Origin: Calocera cornea HHB12733
Taxonomy: Eukaryota; Basidiomycota; Dacrymycetes; Dacrymycetales; Dacrymycetaceae
DNA: 12,399 nucleotides
NCBI GenBank assembly: GCA_001632435.1
Contig: KV424213.1
Location: 1 to 12,399, forward strand
Reading direction: 5' to 3'
A model generated the notes under the pieces. It saw only the letters and a program-made list of their open reading frames with translations. It was not told the origin of the DNA and searched no databases. Position numbers and translations under genes: made by a program. Below are positions 2,656 to 12,399 of the stretch, in pieces (the stretch's first letter is position 1; every line of letters begins with the position of its first letter).

Positions 2656-3079
2656 CTAGATGCCATAGATAGCCAATGCACATTTCCTGATGACTGCACG
2701 TACTGGAGATTTTCCTGCTGTACAATGTCAGACAGCGGAGGGCTGTCATTCGAAGAATGTACGTACTAGGGTATTTGTTGCGCTGCGCACTGGCAGTCCG
2801 TCGACTGATCTCCGCAACGTCTACGGCGGGGACAGGCACTGGCTCACATCCGGCACGCACTTCGACAGATGGCTCAGCTCGAGTACGAATTTGCGTGCCT
2901 TCTTTCTGACGGTAATGCTGCTTGCAAGCAAGGCAGCACACCTTGGGGGGCAGGAGAGTTCCTGTGACCGGATCGCGAGGGTGTATTGTATGCCAGCCGG
3001 TTTCATGTGTAATGGGGGAAGTACAGCGAAAGCAGGACGTTCCCTGCCAGGATGTGATGAAGGGAGATATCTCCTCCAT
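2656..3079 (-). CDS. Small protein with GATA-like four-cysteine zinc motif
   Basis: Two-exon minus-strand gene: exon 1 at 3079-2767, 49-bp intron 2766-2718 (GTACGT donor, CTGAC branch, TACAG acceptor), exon 2 at 2717-2656 ending in TAG; 124 residues predicted. The ATG at 3079 has an A at -3. The N-terminus holds Cys16-x2-Cys19, then Trp29, a Pro-x-Thr-Gly turn (37-40), and Cys49-x2-Cys52 followed by His-Tyr. This order (CxxC, Trp, PxG, CxxC, Tyr) resembles a GATA-type finger with a longer loop, so DNA or RNA binding is plausible. The remainder is low-complexity, rich in Glu, Val, Pro and Arg, with no recognised domain. It diverges from the integrase gene at 3994 across a repeat-bearing spacer. 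I do not recognise the family. The intron is well formed, which argues for a real gene, but a longer 3' end through another intron is possible. Confidence 0.5.
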
Positions 3080-3210
3080 TGTGGAAGGTCGAACGGGGAG
3101 GGAGCAGTGAAGTCAGAAACAGAGTACCCCGTTCCCTTAAATGCTGCAAGAGAACAGTCCATGTGATACATGGATGAGAGCGGCGGCCAAGTTTTCTCTG
3201 GATAGGGAAG

Positions 3211-3243
3211 CCTGTCCATCGCCAGTGTCCCGTACTGGACAGG
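3211..3243. repeat. Hairpin repeat copy A
   Basis: Perfect 8-bp arms CCTGTCCA and TGGACAGG around a 17-nt centre. A shared GGGAAG precedes it, and a GTAATCAATG tract follows ~25-30 bp after the second arm, as in copy B. Confidence 0.75.
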
Positions 3244-3357
3244 TTGTACTCCTATCTCTTCCCAGCGCAGTAATCAATGATGACGAAATGACCGCGGGCC
3301 GGGGAATTGCAAGTACGATTGCCGGACACTGTCACAGAGCACCACTTGACAGGGAAG

Positions 3358-3390
3358 CCTGTCCATCGCCCGTGTCCCGTGCTGGACAGG
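3358..3390. repeat. Hairpin repeat copy B
   Basis: Same 8-bp arms CCTGTCCA/TGGACAGG. The centre differs from copy A at only two positions. It starts 147 bp after copy A. Confidence 0.75.
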
Positions 3391-3477
3391 TTGGGTTCAC
3401 CGTCTCCGAAGTCCAGTAATCAATGCTGCAGGATTCATTCGAAGTCGGCCGAGCCTTGGACAGAGTACATGAGGAAG

Positions 3478-3510
3478 CCTGTCCATCGATTGTCCACCGA
3501 GCTGGACAGC
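3478..3510. repeat. Hairpin repeat copy C (diverged)
   Basis: Arms CTGTCCA/TGGACAG are kept (7 bp) with the same total length, while the centre has diverged. It starts 120 bp after copy B. Retention of the arms and arm distance against a drifting centre suggests the dyad itself matters. Confidence 0.65.
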
Positions 3511-3993
3511 TTTTGCTCTCAGCTCTTCTAAGTCAAATCCGGCATGGTTGCTACGCGCCGGACAGCTTGCTCTTCCAACTTCCAGTGTATACGATCACTG
3601 GGTGCCTTGGCACCGCAGAGAGAAGATGGAATGGGCCGCTTAGAAGGCAAAGTGGGCGCGGGAATGGACAGTATTCCACTGTGTGGGTGCGTTGCTGGGC
3701 TGTTCCAGCACTCCGCAGTCCACAGATCCCTATAGCATTCTGTATGGAACATGGGCTAGCTGATCCTGACGTACAAGAAAGAGAAGACTGCTCTTATCGC
3801 ACTCGTTGCAATGGGATACGCCCTTGCTTCATCAAAGCGGGCCGTGTATGACCAAGACGATCAGGGTTCGTGTCGGGCATTCTTTGATACGGAAGTATCA
3901 CACCGCTTTTCCCAACGTCTTGTCCATCAAACGAATATTGCTTGCTCGCTCTGTCGGACCACTGCGTTGCTCCTTAGCATACACACCCCTCAG

Positions 3994-5839
3994 ATGGAGG
4001 AAACTTTCCCCAGGCAGCTGAATCAACACGGGACTGGTGAGTTGAATGCATCCATTGGTATCCAGCCAGCCACGTGGACGCTGATCTCTGCGGGCCAGTC
4101 CCTGATTCAATTCTTCGGCCTTTGGTGGAGAAGTACTACTCTTATGGATACGGGGACAAGAAGATCCTGGAAGCCATATCCCGCGACGTGGAGCTTGAGC
4201 AAAATGGATGGACTCTGTCGTAAGTGACACTTCCCCAGCATGTACTGGCAGCTCTACTCATCCTGTTCAGGACGAAAACCATTCAGCGCCGCCGCAAAGA
4301 GTGGGGCTTGCTGTCTGTCAAGCAGCAAGGGCACACGCTGGAGACCATCTCTCCCTACATAGAGCAACTTCGCATGCAGACCGCCAATCGTCTGGGTTCG
4401 AGGTCAATGCGGGACTTTCTGCGGTCAGACAATGTCTTGGTGTCACGGCTAGTTGACAAACAGACTCTCCCGCGGCAACTGGCTAACAATCTGTCTAGGC
4501 ATCTTATCTCACAGTACCAGTCTCTGACGGATCCCATTGGAAATCGACAGCGACGGGGGAAACGGCTGAAGCATTATCATCTCTGGACAGCTGGCTTGCA
4601 TGAGTTGTGGTCTTTCGATCAGCATGACAAGTGGAAGCGGTTCGGGCTCTTCCTACACGTCGGCTTGGAGAATTTTTCCAACACTGTCCTCTGGCTGAAG
4701 ATCTGGTGGACTAACTCGAACCCACGGCTTATCGCCAGCTACTACTTCGAAGCGGCAAAGCGCTTGCACGGTCTGTGTTCCATTAGCTAGTACACCAGAT
4801 GCTGACATTGCAAAGGTATCCCTCTTCTGACCCAAAGCGATCCAGGAACCGAAAACAATGGTATTGCAAATGCACAGACCACGCTACGACGTCTTCTAGA
4901 TCCATCTCTGGAAGATACCCTCCAGCACCAGTGGATGCGTGGACACTCTAATATCAAACCGGAAATCTTCTGGTCGAAGCTGCGGAGGCAGTGGTCGCAA
5001 GGTTGGGAGGCTCTGTTCCAGGAGGGATTGGACAACGGCTACTACGTGCCTGCATTTCCAGCCGAAGCGTACGTAGTCACCTGTTCCCCTCCTACCCTAC
5101 TAACTGCGTGACAGCCTGTTATTCCGCTGGTTGGCTATTCCGCTGGTGCAGCGTGATCTCGACCGATACGCACAGATTCACAATACCAGCAGACCACGCA
5201 AGAACGACAAGAAAAAGATGCCGACGGAAATTCCGTACGTCCTGATGGAACATCCAGAGGTGTACGGGCCCTATCATGACTACAAAGTCAGTGAGTGTTG
5301 TGAATGAGCCAAAGAGCGAGCCACTGAGAAGAACCGAGTTAGATAGCCATTTCAAAAGAGCTTGTAGACCAGGTGGCACGGGAGTTGGCCCCTGCAGACC
5401 ATCCGGTATTCGAGCTGGTACCTGATGCATTCCGTTATGAAGCGTCGAGAGTTTATGAAGGTTCGAGGTTCGTCCCGGTTGCACTTGAGCAAGTGCTTAC
5501 TGGCTCTGCCTCCCAGCGATAGGCTGTCCCCCGGTGAACCGCAGTACATTCTGGCGAGTTTACACCACAATGCTGAATGCATTTACGGACCTTCCAAATG
5601 CGAACGCTATCCAGGACGAGGCGTTCCGGAACGAGCAACGAGAGGCAACCATTGGGCGCGAATTTATGGAAGTACTTCCAGGACGGGCAGCACGAGGCCC
5701 TGCGTTGATGGGACTTGAAGCTGATGTGGAAGAAGAGGACCCAGAAGGCGAGGACGTGCGGACTGGGGAGAACAACAGATTCTCACCCGACGGCAACGAA
5801 GATGACTTATCAGTATATACACTAACCCTGGCTGTTTAG
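3994..5839 (+). CDS. Integrase-core (DDE) domain protein, seven exons, 509 residues
   Basis: Exons: 3994-4036, 4099-4219, 4271-4770, 4816-5068, 5115-5290, 5347-5460, 5517-5839. The six introns (62, 51, 45, 46, 56, 56 bp) are GT-AG, and all phases agree. Residues ~16-70 (PDSILRPLVEKYYSYGYGDK... RRRKEWGL) look like a helix-turn-helix DNA-binding region. Residues ~165-290 form an integrase-like RNase H fold: LWSFDQHDKW (Asp171, or Asp174), TQSDPGTEN (Asp230) and NIKPEIFW (Glu271) give a D-D-E triad with 40 residues between the second Asp and the Glu. A conserved-looking tail with LLFRWLAIPLVQRDLDRY (~305) and APADHPVFELVP follows, then an acidic C-terminus (~450-500). I know this as a stand-alone integrase-core family of Agaricomycetes, with no reverse transcriptase or gag next to it. 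The first exon is short and the start less certain. It could be an active transposase or a domesticated copy. Confidence 0.85.
4037..5516 (+). other. Six introns of the integrase gene
   Basis: Introns are 4037-4098, 4220-4270, 4771-4815, 5069-5114, 5291-5346 and 5461-5516. Most have a recognisable branch motif (GCTGATC, GCTGACA, ACTAACT, ACTGAG). The third ends in AAAG and the sixth starts GTTCGA, both weaker sites, yet each is required to keep the protein continuous (HG-IPLLTQSD and RVYEAIG-CPPV). Four interrupted reading frames are resolved entirely by splicing, without any frameshift. Confidence 0.75.
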
Positions 5840-6054
5840 TTAGACGTGCGATCTATACCTCATGTATTACAGACTGGCCGTGCTGCGCCATCACAGCACA
5901 TACGGCATCATTGTGGTCAGGCATCTCGGGTACGTGCTGGCCTAGTCGTGCGCATACAGCTTGTTCCCCCTCCGCATACCCCACCAGGCCTTCATTGCCG
6001 AAACTGTCATGGTAAGATGAAAGCTGTCTGTCGAAGACCTTGAATACGAGTACT
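5840..6054. other. Short spacer between integrase gene and RPT2 fragment
   Basis: About 215 bp with no credible gene, terminator or repeat that I can recognise; probably the integrase 3' UTR and then the edge of the captured fragment. Confidence 0.4.
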
Positions 6055-6446: not shown

Positions 6447-6703
6447 CCCTGAAAGGTGGCAAGATGTTGACCTTGACTGACACACCTCTTTGGCCAGTGC
6501 TTGTCATAGGCGATACCGCAGTTCAGCAGACTGGCCTGCTATCAAATCATGCTCCTGTAGAGCAGACTGGAGTCTATTATGATACTACGAGAGAGGGAAG
6601 GATCACCTCTCTCGTGATCGCACCCCGGCAAGAGCACGGGGCTCGCGTACCGTGCAAAGGGCAACTACAATATATGCTACCGAAAGGAGCTTAAGCAGAA
6701 GGG
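6447..6703. other. Spacer between RPT2 fragment and tandem repeats
   Basis: About 257 bp with no supported gene. It contains a short direct repeat (CAGACTGG near 6527 and 6562) and a small inverted repeat GATCAC/GTGATC near 6600-6620. An open frame from 6464 shows no family resemblance and is probably chance. Confidence 0.35.
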
Positions 6704-7147
6704 GAGGGTCAGGCCCTGCACCTTCCACGGCTCCCAGCATAGGCTGGACACACGACGGGCAAGCCATGCGCGGTTTGCAGCACTACACCGCACGAAAATC
6801 TAAAGTAAACAAGTGCTTCGGCGAGTGGCGAGGGGCAAGCCCTGCACCACTGCCTGTGCACACAACCCAGTCAATGCACGCGACGGTCATGCCATGCGCG
6901 GCACGACTGGGCTGCAGAGAAACTATCTACAGTGTGGGCCTGCGAGAGGTGAGGGGCATGCCCAGCACCGTTCGCTGGCCCACGCAGCCTGGTCAGAACA
7001 CGCGACGGTCAAGCCATGCGCGGTTCAGAGACTCAGGCCGCCACTGGATCCATGGCAAGACAGCTCGTAAAGGGCGAGGGGCAAGCCCTGCGCCAGTTAC
7101 GAGCCACTCACCTGCCTCTTCACTTGCGACGGGCATGCCATGCGCAA
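6704..7147. repeat. Four degenerate ~124-bp tandem repeats with paired palindromic decamers
   Basis: Units begin at 6704, 6830, 6951 and 7076 with GAGGG(G/T)CA and a GCCC-containing core (spacings 126, 121, 125). Each contains a second conserved block CGACGG(G/T)CA(A/T)GCCATGCGC at 6753, 6881, 7003 and 7127 (spacings 128, 122, 124). Both blocks contain the dyad GGGCWWGCCC or a near match: 6833-6842, 6954-6963 and 7079-7088 are full palindrome-type copies. 6707-6716 and the second-block sites at 6757, 6885, 7007 and 7131 are imperfect. The DNA between blocks has diverged much more than the blocks. The array lies 340 bp upstream of the chromo-domain gene start, so it may be its promoter or an element's subterminal repeat region. 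Confidence 0.8.
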
Positions 7148-7164
7148 GATCAGAGAGCAGGGGC

Positions 7165-7371
7165 TGGGAGAAACGCGCAGGTGCGCAGACGCGCAGACGT
7201 GCGCAGATGGAGGTTGAGAAGAGAGATGCATTTGGTTCCGCCGACGCGTCGCGCGTTTCACGTACCCCAAAATACCTCCGCTCAGGGTTCCAAGTTGCTT
7301 CCGCTGCCGCGCCAGTTGCTTCCGCAGCCGCGCCTCATGTTTACGGGGCGTATTCTGCCTCCGCTCAGGGT
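7165..7371. repeat. GC-rich short repeats upstream of the chromo-domain gene
   Basis: Three small repeat types: a GCGCAGAC-like cluster at about 7176-7207, a 21-22 bp tandem pair (GTTGCTTCCGC-GCCGCGC) at about 7292-7333, and CCTCCGCTCAGGGT at 7275-7288 and 7358-7371. They make chance open frames rich in Arg, Pro and Ala on both strands. Confidence 0.5.
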
Positions 7372-7410
7372 CCACAGCGCCTCGCATATATTGTCTCACC
7401 TGACGCCGAA

Positions 7411-7486
7411 CAAGGCTTCTTTGTCCTTCTGCTCCCCCCGCCATTATCTCTGGGCGCTTAAACTTAAAATCCCCTTTGTTTCAAAA
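7411..7486 (+). promoter_or_regulatory. CT-rich tract and A-rich leader before the chromo-domain gene
   Basis: A pyrimidine tract (GCTTCTTTGTCCTTCTGCTC, about 7414-7439) followed by an A/T-rich leader ending CAAAAATGG. CT-rich blocks just upstream of transcription starts are common in filamentous fungi, and AAA before the ATG is a good start context. No TATA box is evident. Confidence 0.4.
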
Positions 7487-10357
7487 ATGGCACCCCGCGG
7501 TTCAGGTCGTCGAGGGCAGAAGAGCACTGGAGCTGGCAGAGGGCGGGGAGGGCGTACTCAAGGCGAAGGGGGTCCAAGGAAGCGACGCAGAGTAGTACCG
7601 CCCAGGCCAGGTTTCGATCAGCTCGGGAACCGGATCTACGGAGCGCAGCCAGTCTATGCCTCTGATGCGGACATTCAGCGCGTTCTGGATGATCAAACAG
7701 ATACTGGCTATCGTCACACGGATGAGGACGATCCCCCAGCAGATGTTCCTGGCCGTGTCTGGAGATGGGAGAGGAACCACTGGCAGCTTTTTCTGACAGA
7801 ACGTCAGGGCAAGGAGGACACAGTGGCCTTGGTGGATATTATACCCCCGAGTGGGGTCGATAGGACGGTAAGTTCTGATCTTTGCTGTTTCCATAGCCAG
7901 TATACTGAATAATCAGCAGAAGTGGACATATCGAAATGTCTTGTACGAGGTGATCGGCCAAGGCAATGAGATCTGGACCTTTGGTATGGACGAGGTGTAA
8001 GTCTTTCACGTGTCCCCCAGTAGCTGACTGGCACTGAACAGAGTGTCTTCGCAGTCTCATCTATCCGGGTTGGGACAAGCAGAAGCTGAAGAAGATATTT
8101 ACTGCCTGGATGGATTCTGACGTATACAACGCTGCGCGGACCGACTACGAAAAGCACTATCAAGTGCACCAGCGAGAAGAACAGTACGAAATCGTGTCGA
8201 TTCTCAACCATGTCCTTATTGGGGATCCGGATCTGCCCAAGAATGAATGGGTATGCTGACCTCGTCTTGTTTATACTGCACTGGTCACTGACACACACAA
8301 TAACAGAAGGTGGAGTATATAGTGCGCTGGCTTGGGGACACATCAGATCCTGGCGACGCGTATCTTGCAAGAAACAAGGCTGATCCGTGGATCCGACCGT
8401 GGGAAGTCGACGATCCTAATGCTGCAACCGGCTTACACATGTTCTGGAGAGTGCCCCATGAGGAACTGGAGTAAGCACATGAGATCACGCTCATTGCCAT
8501 ACCTCACACCTCTACAGAGAAACCGCCCCAGCCCGCCTCTACAAGTACTGGCGCCAGCACGAGATGGATCACAATGACAATGAGTGGCCGCTCGTGGCCA
8601 ATGAAGTATTGGAGTGGGACGAGGATGAGCTGTTTGAAGATGGTAACCTCGCCAGCGGTATCACGGATTTCAAGGAGGCAATGGCAAGTAACGCTGTATA
8701 CTGGTTGCATGCCGCTACTGACAATAGAACAGAAAACATTCGGGCTTCCAGTTGCTTCCCATAGACGTCTGTTCGTGAGTATGTTCACTTATTGTACACA
8801 AATATCTGCTAACATCTGTGATAGCATTGTTCTGTCTGTCGCTCGAGCCGCGGTGCTAGTTCCCTGACCGCATGCACTGCATGTGAAAGGGCCTTCTGCA
8901 TTTCAAGCATCGGCAATGAGGGCTGTGCAAAGATAACCATGGCCGAGCTGGCCAAGCAGGGCGGGACGCGTTGTGTGCAATGTTTCAGAGCGGATGAGGC
9001 CGTTAGAGTTCCTCCAGTAAGTGGACTGGATGGCTGCGCCTATCCTGATACTGACATCATCACCTAGTACCGTTACTCTGGCAAGCTGGTAGATTGGGCG
9101 CAGTCTCCCGTCTACGCGGATCCAGTACTTGCTGTCATGGTACACTGGAGAGAACCCGACCGGCACAGTATGTCCGAGCTGTCAGCCCACATTGTCAAAG
9201 CGCATTTGGGAGAATACTACATCTCCTCTCAGCTCGTAAGTCATTCTCATATCTTTAATCAATCAATACTGAAAGCCACACCAGTATCCTCTTGTGGAGT
9301 GGATCGATGTAGAGGTATCTGAAACTGGAGTTCGCTGGATGAAGAAAGGGGAAGACATATACTCGTCGATTTCGCCCATTGATGGTCTTCAGAGGGCCAC
9401 GAAAGAACTTGCTCGCAACATGAAGAAGAAGTGAGCTTTCTTAGATTCTGATATCCGGTTTGGAGGCTGATAAGGTGTTTTAGATACAAAAAACAGTTCA
9501 ATATCGTGATGACTGTTGATGTCCATAGCAACTGGAACGACGGGGAGATGCTTTTCAATCGAGGAAGAAAGCACCATAGCTATGGAACCCCGCTCGAGGT
9601 ATGCGTATTCAGTCAATACTATCAGCACTGCCTATCTGACTACTGGAAGATCACCAAAAGCGTGTTCGGCGACATTAAGCCCCGAGAGGTTTCAGTGCGC
9701 AGCGTCTGCCTCCTGCTGACATGCAGTGGTACGGTGTTACACGCGCTGGATTCTGTACAAGAAACCACGTACGTGCTCTAGCCTTCCAGTATCCAATGGT
9801 GCAACTGACAACCTCAACTTAGTGTTGCATTCCATTCGGTCGTGGCGTTCACCGCCAAGCAGTTCAACGCTCAAAGGGTTTCGGAACAGTTCCTGCCTCC
9901 CTTCCTTCGCGGCTATCTTCAAGACCGCAAAACGTGCGAGGAAGCGATGCTTCTGGGATACGTCAAAGAACTGGCCAGCACGGAACTCGGTTTGGACATG
10001 TTTCTCTTCGAGGCTAGGTCGGAGATATGGCGGTTCACCTATGCCACTCCCGCTCGCAACTTCACGGGCAACCCTGAAGACATGAACTGCCCCCTCTGCT
10101 CTCACTACATGCAGATGGACGGCAAGCGAAACAGCTCGGGGTTACTGTTCCGCTGTCGTATCCGGGGGTGTAAAGGCAGAGTGCGCTTGAGCTTCGAGAA
10201 CGGTCAGTTTGGGGTGTACGAGCTGTACCCCAGAATGTATGACACCGACTTCCGCGTGCTGAAGATCGAGGTGGACACGAAAGGACCTGGAGGATCTGTG
10301 CGGATCTGCCCCCCCCCTAGACCCATCGACCCCAAGTGGCTCACTCCTAGGTCCTGA
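7487..10357 (+). CDS. Multidomain chromo-like / eight-Cys zinc finger / caspase-like / zinc-ribbon protein, eleven exons
   Basis: Exons: 7487-7867, 7917-7996, 8055-8250, 8307-8470, 8518-8683, 8733-8774, 8825-9016, 9068-9235, 9285-9430, 9484-9768, 9823-10357; 784 residues, all phases consistent. Residues 1-38 are Gly/Arg-rich with a basic RKRRR (31-35), a likely nuclear signal. Residues ~128-165 and ~197-290 look chromo-like; the second has YEIVSILNHVLIGDPD, KVEYIVRWLG and DPWIRPWEVDD, with an insertion. Residues 344-396 are a zinc finger with Cys at 345, 348, 360, 363, 368, 377, 393 and 396 (PHD/RING-like, no His). Residues ~516-660 contain NIVMTVDVHSN (His526) and SVCLLLTCSGTV (Cys592), resembling the His and Cys strands of clan-CD caspase/CHAT folds (inference). 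Residues 696-723 form a CxxC...Cx4C zinc ribbon. A chromatin-associated role is plausible. The gene appears intact. The family is not one I can name, and the start is well supported. Confidence 0.72.
7868..9822 (+). other. Ten introns of the chromo-domain gene
   Basis: Introns: 7868-7916, 7997-8054, 8251-8306, 8471-8517, 8684-8732, 8775-8824, 9017-9067, 9236-9284, 9431-9483, 9769-9822 (47-58 bp). Nine are GT-AG; 8684-8732 is GC-AG. Branch motifs (ACTGA, TACTGAC, GCTAAC, GGCTGAT, AACTGAC) sit just before the acceptors. An extra in-frame candidate, 9599-9649 (51 bp, GTATGC...CTGACTACTGGAAG), would remove 17 residues; I left it in the coding sequence because the retained segment (...LSDYWKITKSV) reads like protein. 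Confidence 0.7.
8684..8732 (+). other. GC-AG intron in the chromo-domain gene
   Basis: The donor is GCAAGT, which matches the strong consensus of rare GC-AG introns, with branch TACTGAC and acceptor ACAG. It joins KEAM to KTFGLPV. Reading through gives a stop at 8763 in that frame. Confidence 0.7.
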
Positions 10358-10930
10358 ACTGACATCGAAATGGAGTGACAATGTAGCCTGTGATAGCAAT
10401 AGTTTACGTAGTTAGAAAACCCCAGAAAACGCAGTTAATAGGGACACAATGATACGGCTTGATGATAATAGAATTCCCTGTTGACTGCACTATGTTGGCT
10501 ACCCCGACGGATTACAAACTGTCTTCCAAGCAACTCCAGCATCTATCAATCTCCCCCGCGGTGTTAACATAGCCGGGTGGTGATCTGCTTCAGCTGAGGA
10601 GATAAAGCCAGTAAACCTCCCTGTCAACGCAGTTCAAAGTGCACTGGAACTCCTCCTGGAACCACATTGCCCAACGGCTCAGAGTGGAAGTTGAATCCAC
10701 GTGAGTCAGAGGAGCACATTAGCTTCAGACTGGGTTGTCCCGTCTACTACAAAAGCTTAAATAATAGATCCCTAATTAGACAGATAAGTACAGTATTGAA
10801 AAAGTCCTCGCTTGTGGAAGCAAGAAGGGCGTGCAGCAATGGGTCCTCCTAGGGAAAAAAGCATTGTTGATACTTGTAAAGCCGAACAATGAAGCTGACA
10901 AAAGTGTAGAAGTCCAAACCAGCCAAACGT

Positions 10931-10966
10931 CAACATCACATTCGTAAGCAGACAAATGTGATGTTG
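10931..10966. repeat. Perfect 12-bp inverted repeat, 12-nt loop
   Basis: CAACATCACATT at 10931-10942 and its exact reverse complement AATGTGATGTTG at 10955-10966, separated by 12 nt. It can form a strong hairpin. Confidence 0.75.
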
Positions 10967-10995
10967 TCGCTTGCAGAAGGCCCAGATCTTCACAT

Positions 10996-11048
10996 GAGCA
11001 CTTTTGATTTGCCAGAGATCACCTATCCCTCCCAAATCAAAGGTGCTC
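10996..11048. repeat. 16-bp inverted repeat with one mismatch
   Basis: GAGCACTTTTGATTTG at 10996-11011 pairs with CAAATCAAAGGTGCTC at 11033-11048. The single mismatch becomes a G-U pair in one RNA strand. The loop is 21 nt. It lies 29 bp after the preceding inverted repeat. Confidence 0.7.
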
Positions 11049-11261
11049 GAAATCATAGATTGCCAACTGTAAGGATCGAACTGTGTCCCACATAGTGGTT
11101 ACCAGTGCGTCCTTACTGCTCAACTATAATTCCTCAACTCAAGAAGCCGAACAACCTCGGTACCAATCTACATTATGTCGATGCATTTCCTGTTGGTTAC
11201 CTACTGGAACCACAGAAGTGACAATCTAAAATACGGCACTGAACCTTGTATGTGAGGCCAA

Positions 11262-11680
11262 ACCTTACATGCGTTGCATGAGCTTAAGCATCCGCACCAG
11301 CTGCTGGCGCTGTACTCTTGTTGGAGTCTGCAATCGGTACCTGGCCCATACAGACGGCGACAGAGAAAGCTCCAGTACTCATGAGAGAGGCTGGATGTGA
11401 ACTTGCATACGGTGCATGAGCTTAAGCTTGAGCACCAGCTGCTGGCACAGTACTCTAATCGAAGTCTTCAATCAATACCTGGCTTATACAGACGGCAAGG
11501 GGGAAAGAGCCAGTACTCATGGGTGATGCTGGGTGACAACTTACAGCCGATGAGCTTGAGCACCTTGAGCACCATCTGCTGGCTTTGTACTCTGGATGGA
11601 GCCTGGAATCCGTATCTGGTTCATGCAGATGGTGAGGAAGAAAACCCAGTACTCATGGGTGATACGGGAAAAGACAGGTA
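11262..11680. repeat. Three tandem copies of a 138-bp repeat
   Basis: Units start at 11262, 11400 and 11538, exactly 138 bp apart, each beginning AACnTnnCA. Shared blocks: CATGAGCTTAAGC (copies 1 and 2; copy 3 has ATGAGCTTGAGC), GCACCAGCTGCTGGC, GTACTCT, AATC-GTA-CTGG, CATACAGACGG and CCAGTACTCATG. The third copy carries a short internal duplication of the CTTGAGCACC segment. Within units, CCAGC-T-GCTGG and GCTTAAGC are small palindromes, and CATGAG...CTCATG bracket most of the first unit. Confidence 0.8.
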
Positions 11681-11730
11681 AGGGACAGAAATTGATTATT
11701 TGCTGCGGACGGAGTACATGTCAGGTGTAT

Positions 11731-12399
11731 CTACTTCGTCTTAGAGCGGTTGCTCTTAGACCCACCGCCCCTGTTCCCTCCGCGCTTGAAGACCTTAAAG
11801 CTGCGGCTCCTACCAGCCGCCGAGGATTCGGCCGGGGCCTCGGCATGAGTGACTCGCGCTTCCTGCTCAAGGAACACCTGCTGCTGGTAGTCGAATTGGC
11901 GATACGGATCCATGTCTCGAGCTTGCTTGCCAGTCTTGAACTGTTCCGCGGCGTCGTGCACGCGCTCAGCCAGCTTCTGCCACTGGGGGTGGGGCCACAG
12001 AGGCGAGCGGCCGATTACGCGCAGGAGGTCGCCCACGAACTCCCACTTCGGTCCAACCAGGTCAGAACCATACGAGCCGGTGGACTGCGCCATAAGGACT
12101 TCCATCATCTTGTCCATGCGCATCTCCTTGCCGCTGTCGTCCGGCCGAAGAGAAATGTTGTTCTCTGTCTTCCCCTGAGAACTCGTCAGCATACATACAA
12201 GTGTCACTCGGCTCTACAGACTCACCCTATCTCCAATCGCAGCCATAATGGGGGCGTGCATCCAGTCCATGAGCGCTGTGTCGTTGTCCAGAACCTCACG
12301 AAGAAACGGCAGGGAATACGGTTGACCATCAGGGTGCTGGAACCACTTGAGGAGGTTGCTGGCGCGGCGTTCGGGATCCTCTTCGTGGAAGTTCACCTC
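11731..12399 (-). CDS. Unrecognised protein, 5'-truncated by the window, two exons shown
   Basis: On the minus strand, exon 12399-12226 (codons in frame from the window edge) joins exon 12174-11731 over a 51-bp intron at 12225-12175 (GTGAGT donor, GCTGACG branch, CTCAG acceptor); the stop is TAG at 11733-11731. At least 205 residues are present. The visible N-terminal part (LLKWFQHPDGQPYSLPFLREVLDNDTALMDWM...) is likely helical. The middle has PLWPHPQWQKLAERVHDAAEQF. The tail (FKVFKRGGNRGGGSKSNRSKTK) is basic and Gly-rich, as in nucleic-acid-binding or nuclear proteins. The true start lies outside the window; the GTG at 12396 is not a credible start. It converges with the chromo-domain gene. 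I do not recognise the family. Clean splicing and an uninterrupted frame support a real gene. Confidence 0.65.
12175..12225 (-). other. Intron of the truncated minus-strand gene
   Basis: 51-bp GT-AG intron in phase 0 with a GTGAGT donor, GCTGAC branch and CTCAG acceptor. It joins AAIGDR to GKTENN and removes an in-frame stop. Confidence 0.75.

Follow-up and report, generated by a model that had tools for sequence, protein, structure and literature searches.

Introduction

Fungal transposons of the Kyakuja-Dileera-Zisupton (KDZ) superfamily carry TET/JBP dioxygenases, thought to undo silencing by the host, albeit their function has not been experimentally validated (PMC12730594, section 4.2). 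The same paper describes a Dileera element with 8-bp duplications (section 3.1). In Cryptococcus neoformans, KDZ1-KDZ3 are ~9-11 kb in size and possess a KDZ transposase and terminal inverted repeats (TIRs) of 139-241 bp, with duplications of 8 bp for KDZ1 and of 4-8 bp for KDZ2 and KDZ3 (PMC12810828, available part). In this study, we analyzed a contig of 12,399 nucleotides (KV424213.1; C295) of Calocera cornea HHB12733, a jelly fungus of the Dacrymycetes, of which the genome comprises 32,095,676 bases in 302 contigs; the whole contig is referred to as the window. The window harbors a gene at positions 7487-10357 (forward strand), which we term gene A. On balance, we favor the view that gene A encodes a transposon-encoded, probably nuclear, caspase-fold accessory protein, the family of which resides on KDZ transposons and would work for them.

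Gene A and its product

An earlier note, made from the sequence of the window, had joined eleven exons into a single protein of ~784 residues. Removing the ten GT-AG introns (40-58 nt) from 7487-10357 indeed left one open frame, of 786 residues, and the other two forward frames of the spliced exons contained 17 and 35 stops. However, an eleventh GT-AG intron of 51 nt, at 9599-9649 (forward strand), had been overlooked; read as coding sequence, it adds exactly 17 residues after GTPLE. We regard this stretch as an intron, since the paralogues of gene A lack the 17 residues and bear their own introns at that point, and P0001, the public model of a 98.6% identical copy, leaves the stretch out. Gene A is a real gene of 12 exons and 11 introns, encoding 769 amino acids followed by a stop, as found by splicing and paralogue alignment with the positions rechecked. 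The exons are 7487-7867, 7920-7996, 8055-8250, 8307-8470, 8518-8687, 8728-8774, 8825-9016, 9068-9235, 9285-9430, 9484-9598, 9650-9768 and 9823-10357, all on the forward strand. An alternative GC-AG donor for intron 5 is visible in the sequence, with which the product would be two residues shorter.

Two public models were among the database matches of the window protein: P0002 (CALCODRAFT_513442) represents the window copy and P0001 (CALCODRAFT_488820) a near-identical locus. P0002 differs from the corrected gene at both ends, starting within the upstream repeats and stopping after exon 9. On the other hand, P0003, the public model of a copy in clade B (see below), is 771 residues long and colinear with the corrected gene, bearing out that the exons belong to one gene.

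The predicted layout of the protein runs from a basic N-terminus through an N-terminal region with no recognized fold, an eight-cysteine finger and a caspase/CHAT fold with a His-Cys pair to a zinc ribbon. Residues 1-40 (7487..7606, forward strand) form a basic, RG-rich segment with 13 K/R and a nuclear-signal-like tract, GGPRKRRRV, in agreement with the nuclear-localization-like tail noticed earlier; RG-rich N-termini were also seen in the three other gene A copies inspected. Pfam was surveyed at an expectation value (E) of ≤ 10 for three members of the family from ~residue 186 on, whereas the window protein and the public models were surveyed at E ≤ 1; the filters of HMMER discard most matches above 0.1. 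Within this scope, no Pfam match of any kind, chromo included, was listed at E ≤ 10 for residues ~197-290, and residues 1-427 of a relative's structure model have a predicted local distance difference test score (pLDDT) below 50, with no confident fold. The chromo-like segments proposed in the earlier note were thus not recovered. Searches of Pfam, NCBIfam (four proteins), PADLOC (three proteins) and the sequences of solved structures found nothing significant for gene A, and we ascribed to chance its two matches at E 0.1-0.2, one to a bacterial antitoxin and the other to a B-box.

The zinc-finger-like segment at residues 346-398 (8825..8983, forward strand) contains cysteines 347, 350, 362, 365, 370, 379, 395 and 398, which are invariant in all nine copies of gene A in the genome; in the model of a homologue from Dacryopinax primogenitus, one of the eight is absent along with flanking residues. 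The eight cysteines seen earlier therefore stand, but their assignment to a PHD/RING-like class does not gain a significant profile match, the best Pfam scores being E = 0.023 for FYVE and E = 0.24 for PHD. The C-terminal zinc-ribbon-like motif formed by C681, C684, C703 and C708 (10088..10171, forward strand) was present as described, and these cysteines are invariant in the nine copies; the Dacryopinax model stops upstream of it.

Between the two zinc modules, residues ~424-650 (9110..9997, forward strand, in five exons) are predicted to adopt a caspase/CHAT fold. We take caspases, MALT1 paracaspase, C11 proteases and legumain to be grouped as clan CD. The caspase-hemoglobinase fold anticipated in the earlier note was found in the predicted structures of P0003 and P0004, two relatives of the window protein. 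SAVED-CHAT (PDB 8tl0) was among the best structural matches of these models, and the clan CD structures listed share 5-13% identity with them. Candidate catalytic residues are His528 in VDVHSN (codon at 9524..9526, forward strand) and Cys577 in LLTCSG (9722..9724, forward strand), 49 residues apart. Both are invariant in the nine copies and kept in the Dacryopinax homologue. In the relatives' models, each lies just behind a predicted strand, so that the dyad is predicted to sit at the ends of neighboring strands.

Relatives of gene A reside on KDZ elements

Searches with gene A segments detected nine copies with the C-terminal half in the genome. They fall into clade A (C295, i.e., the window, and C279), clade B (C52, C122, C80, C218 and C222) and clade C (C48 and C200). 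In addition, C95 bears the 5' portion that is missing from the clade C copy on C48, together with the left end of the element described below, and an exact duplication is common to C95 and C48.

All seven copies of clades B and C lose their mutual similarity at one point ~400 nt behind the gene, within one base, and each bears the motif GACCCTGGATGGTCTC at that right end with 0-1 mismatches. This motif had 11 matches in the genome, seven of which were at gene A copies, while a backward control pattern had two. A further match, on C199, falls at the end of the contig, which bears this terminal repeat as well. The matches on C94 and C190 were dropped, as the terminal repeat was absent by eye. 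At C206:31921 (L027), a related right-end repeat was seen with no gene A nearby, possibly belonging to another element family.

On the 5' side of gene A, the elements comprise a repeat array, a divergently transcribed gene B, gene C and a second precise end, and this left end was observed in six places. The exons of gene C match CxC5 (2.7e-25) and CxC6 (7.1e-27), both above the cut-off, and one exon matches the KDZ domain below the cut-off (0.0013; 18.9 bits versus 26.6). Based on these matches, gene C is taken as a KDZ transposase. Genes A and C were found on one contig in C80, C52 and C95, with assembly gaps between them in C80 and C52 and just the 5' part of gene A in C95; the remaining copies are tied to the transposase through a shared terminus or a duplication only. 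The left and right ends of the C80 element, which spans 8,857 nt including a gap of 770 N, are inverted repeats with 85 identities in 107 aligned positions (110-nt comparison). Target duplications of 8 bp were exact for TATTCACG, CACCGATT and GACGGGCG, and one further pair agreed at 7/8 positions. In other words, among the 42 pairs of seven right and six left flanks, three shared 8/8 bases and one 7/8, against an expectation of 0.0006 exact pairs. Both ends lie on one contig only for C80 and C52, and each of the two remaining exact pairs brings together ends from different contigs. Altogether, the shared ends and duplications show, at the level of sequence, that the gene A family resides on KDZ DNA transposons of C. 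cornea, along with a transposase and a third gene. The earlier suggestion of an element-encoded factor is thus supported for the family, with seven relatives ending at a KDZ terminus and a transposase on C52, C80 and C95, but is not borne out for the window copy.

The third gene, gene B (L020 1155-2726), has a cysteine-rich N-terminal part, judged by eye, and an AT-hook-like match at E 0.078, below the cut-off. A toxin-antitoxin or gasdermin pair consisting of gene A and the divergent gene B was considered and dropped on these two features of gene B, although no search aimed at gasdermin was made. Distant relatives of gene B occur on C104, C167, C47, C212 and C238, the last beside another KDZ transposase. 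With one transposase exon as the query, we obtained at least 25 genome matches, of which six at 87-100% identity belong to the gene A family and 19 are at ≤ 68%.

Selection and distribution

No stop was found in the readable coding part of any of the nine copies, in an analysis biased to intact frames by a splice aligner that penalizes stops. Four of the nine are incomplete (421-511 residues), namely C122 and C218 at contig ends, C80 at a gap and C48 at a break in an intron. Between clades B and C, the NG86 ratio of non-synonymous to synonymous substitutions (dN/dS) was 0.13-0.18 at a high dS of 1.8-1.9, and between clade A and either of the others the synonymous sites were saturated in all pairs but one. 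For the two members of clade A, dN/dS was 0.166, with 17 synonymous changes against 10 non-synonymous ones, which are significantly too few (Fisher P = 6e-6). The ratios of the ten clade B pairs ranged from 0 to 0.77, from few differences, and one was undefined. Judging from these substitution patterns, the gene A family is shown to be under purifying selection.

Outside C. cornea, a single homologue was found, in D. primogenitus, by protein searches that all depend on shared 5-residue words and two of which were capped at 7992 candidates; the distribution of gene A may be wider than these two fungi. The position of many copies at the ends of contigs also led us to consider a subtelomeric gene family, which was rejected, as a scan of 12 stretches showed no telomere-type repeats. 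Judging from the shared termini and target duplications, most contig ends at gene A copies appear instead to be assembly breaks in a repeat. The sequence foreign to the element at C48 (L015 7335-9900) runs 2.5 kb to the contig end, and the first 294 nt of it are found again on C124 with 93% identity; either a misjoin or the insertion of another repeat into an intron may account for it.

The window copy and its surroundings

The window copy is tied to the KDZ elements through its protein and the region upstream of the gene. At 6754..7144 (forward strand), GACGGNCANGCCATGCG occurs five times in an array (four exact and one with two mismatches), against 0.04 array matches expected per window from 50 mononucleotide-shuffled windows. 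Two inverted CGGAAGCAA motifs at 7295..7324 (reverse strand) lie between the array and the gene, and the order of array, two CGGAAGCAA motifs and gene A is common to the window and the KDZ elements L010, L012 and L016/L017. In our best reading, the copy in the window is a stationary family member that retains the coding frame and the upstream array, its transposase and terminal repeats having been lost or never present.

The window from 7329 to 12399 is 98.6% identical to C279 over a 5-kb stretch, and the C295 and C279 loci are, from this similarity, either alleles or recent duplicates. In comparison with C275, the window is 84% identical at 2693-5880 and 93% at 6484-7240. As the end of C275 and the start of C279 are only 88 bases apart in window coordinates, integrase, array and gene A probably follow each other in the second locus as they do in the window, split over the ends of the two contigs. 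The integrase-like gene at 3760-5800 matches rva_4 at E 0.013, below the cut-off, and its family has 34 exon matches across the genome including that of the window. Farther upstream, positions 2-1525 encode a partial Plavaka transposase (Pfam E 1e-63) and 1434-1934 match DUF6830 (1.5e-8); the repeat on this side ends at 2692, with identical end pieces (93/93 bases) on C228, C148 and C55. Downstream of gene A, 11264-11663 contain three tandem copies of a ~137-nt unit that are 71-79% alike.

Discussion

We propose that the gene A protein would act in the nucleus for the transposon, with the finger and the basic tail holding a putative cysteine protease at chromatin or at the ends of the element. 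By analogy with the TET/JBP dioxygenases on other fungal KDZ transposons, an accessory role against silencing can be envisaged. It is possible, but we say so tentatively, that the protease cuts host proteins that silence the element; alternatively, proteolysis might serve the processing of transposition proteins. Somewhat less probable still is the full scenario, in which the KDZ superfamily acquired a nuclear caspase/CHAT protease selected to cut silencing or defense proteins and a detached copy was kept in the host genome.

A number of observations weigh against the favored view. The structure models are those of P0003 and P0004, standing in for the window protein, and the alignments behind them contain 4-5 sequences. 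The best Foldseek matches have TM-scores of only 0.33-0.36 with large root-mean-square deviations, and COPII proteins account for two of the six that reach E ≤ 0.001. Although the prediction and the invariant His and Cys agree with the caspase/CHAT-like domain named in the earlier note, no CHAT, C14, C11, C13 or separase profile was listed in the Pfam scans of gene A proteins, and the clan CD profile match hoped for there was thus not obtained. The bias in the stop counts bears on the intactness of the family, and the C48 copy ends 12 nt before exon 7 at the junction with foreign sequence. As for the window copy, neither gene B nor gene C had a match at E ≤ 0.01 in the window, C279 or 9,900 bases of C275, and no right-end motif was found behind the gene and no KDZ terminus beside it. 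On C238, gene B-like sequence adjoins a transposase of the ≤ 68% class, and the best gene A match in the 5 kb beyond it had an E of 0.077. Because of this element and the other transposase families, gene A appears to be optional cargo, dispensable for KDZ transposition in general, as judged from one element examined. Finally, the proteolysis, nuclear location and target proposed for the gene A protein are inferred.

The gene A protein could instead be a cofactor or regulator of transposition that binds the terminal or upstream repeats, its caspase fold being a scaffold with no proteolysis. Possible binding sites exist within the elements, where the array and the CGGAAGCAA motifs surround gene A, the finger, ribbon and basic tail fit DNA binding, and the partner gene B has its sub-cut-off AT-hook-like match. 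However, a pure scaffold would need neither His528 nor Cys577, the conservation of which extends to Dacryopinax, and a KDZ element with no gene A nearby exists. We regard this explanation as unlikely.

A slightly weaker case can be made, for the window copy, that gene A was not stranded there from a KDZ element but is a passenger of the neighboring putative transposon with the rva_4 integrase. The near-identical second locus seems to repeat integrase, array and gene A over the C275/C279 ends, and cargo transfer between transposon lineages is described for TET/JBP in the available part of PMC12730594. Nevertheless, the integrase parts of the two loci are only 84% identical while the gene A parts are 98.6% identical, and none of the other listed integrase matches has a gene A match nearby. 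A stationary member of the KDZ-borne family remains our preferred reading of the window copy.

More improbable is that gene A encodes a caspase-like effector of cell death or allorecognition, serving as a selfish addiction or killer gene, or is a captured host gene. Fungal CHAT proteases do act in gasdermin-type cell death (PMC12881547, available part), and the window copy has been kept with no adjoining transposase. Still, the matches listed in the Pfam scans of gene A include no profiles for NLR, TPR, ankyrin or WD40, the basic nuclear-type tail and zinc modules are unlike a gasdermin activator, and, among the matches listed by protein searches of limited sensitivity, homologues were confined to this family and one Dacryopinax protein. 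Very improbable, lastly, is another alpha/beta fold (e.g., von Willebrand A-like) matched through a common strand arrangement, for which the shallow alignments, the COPII matches and the 6/50 listed structure matches with other folds (INTS13-INTS14 and TFIIH chains among them) can be cited.

Comparison with known systems

KDZ transposons with accessory genes are known, as are fungal clan CD proteases; what appears to be new here is their combination. Among the open-licence papers listed, we found none joining caspase/CHAT proteins with KDZ or other fungal transposons. The words caspase, CHAT and peptidase are absent from the main text of PMC12730594, caspase and CHAT do not occur in the available part of PMC12062965, and that of PMC4066913 merely lists a caspase-domain gene among annotated contigs. 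If our view is true, gene A would be cargo of a kind not seen before in this known superfamily and, beside TET/JBP, a second, independent accessory enzyme, of which the target would be proteins rather than DNA marks. It would place a caspase-fold protein outside the cell-death setting described for fungal CHAT proteins (PMC12881547, available part) and open a testable route to how basidiomycete transposons escape silencing.

The C. cornea elements share with the TET/JBP-bearing KDZ elements a KDZ-type transposase, inverted terminal repeats, 8-bp duplications and an accessory gene that probably acts epigenetically or against silencing, with mostly intact frames (PMC12730594, available part). 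They differ in that the accessory product is a predicted caspase-fold protein with zinc modules and no dioxygenase. KDZ1-KDZ3 of C. neoformans are similar in size class, TIRs, duplications and transposase, but their transposases carry CxC1 and no caspase-like gene is mentioned in the available part of PMC12810828. Gene A resembles the CHAT proteases, i.e., SAVED-CHAT (PDB 8tl0), TPR-CHAT/Csx29 and the fungal CHAT next to gasdermins (PMC12881547, available part), in its predicted fold with His and Cys behind neighboring strands. In contrast to them, it has no CHAT profile match, no SAVED, TPR or NLR part was found, and its domain is flanked by a zinc finger and a ribbon and borne by a transposon. 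From caspases, MALT1 paracaspase, C11 proteases and legumain, gene A is set apart by the 5-13% identity, the lack of a profile match and its nuclear-type flanking modules.
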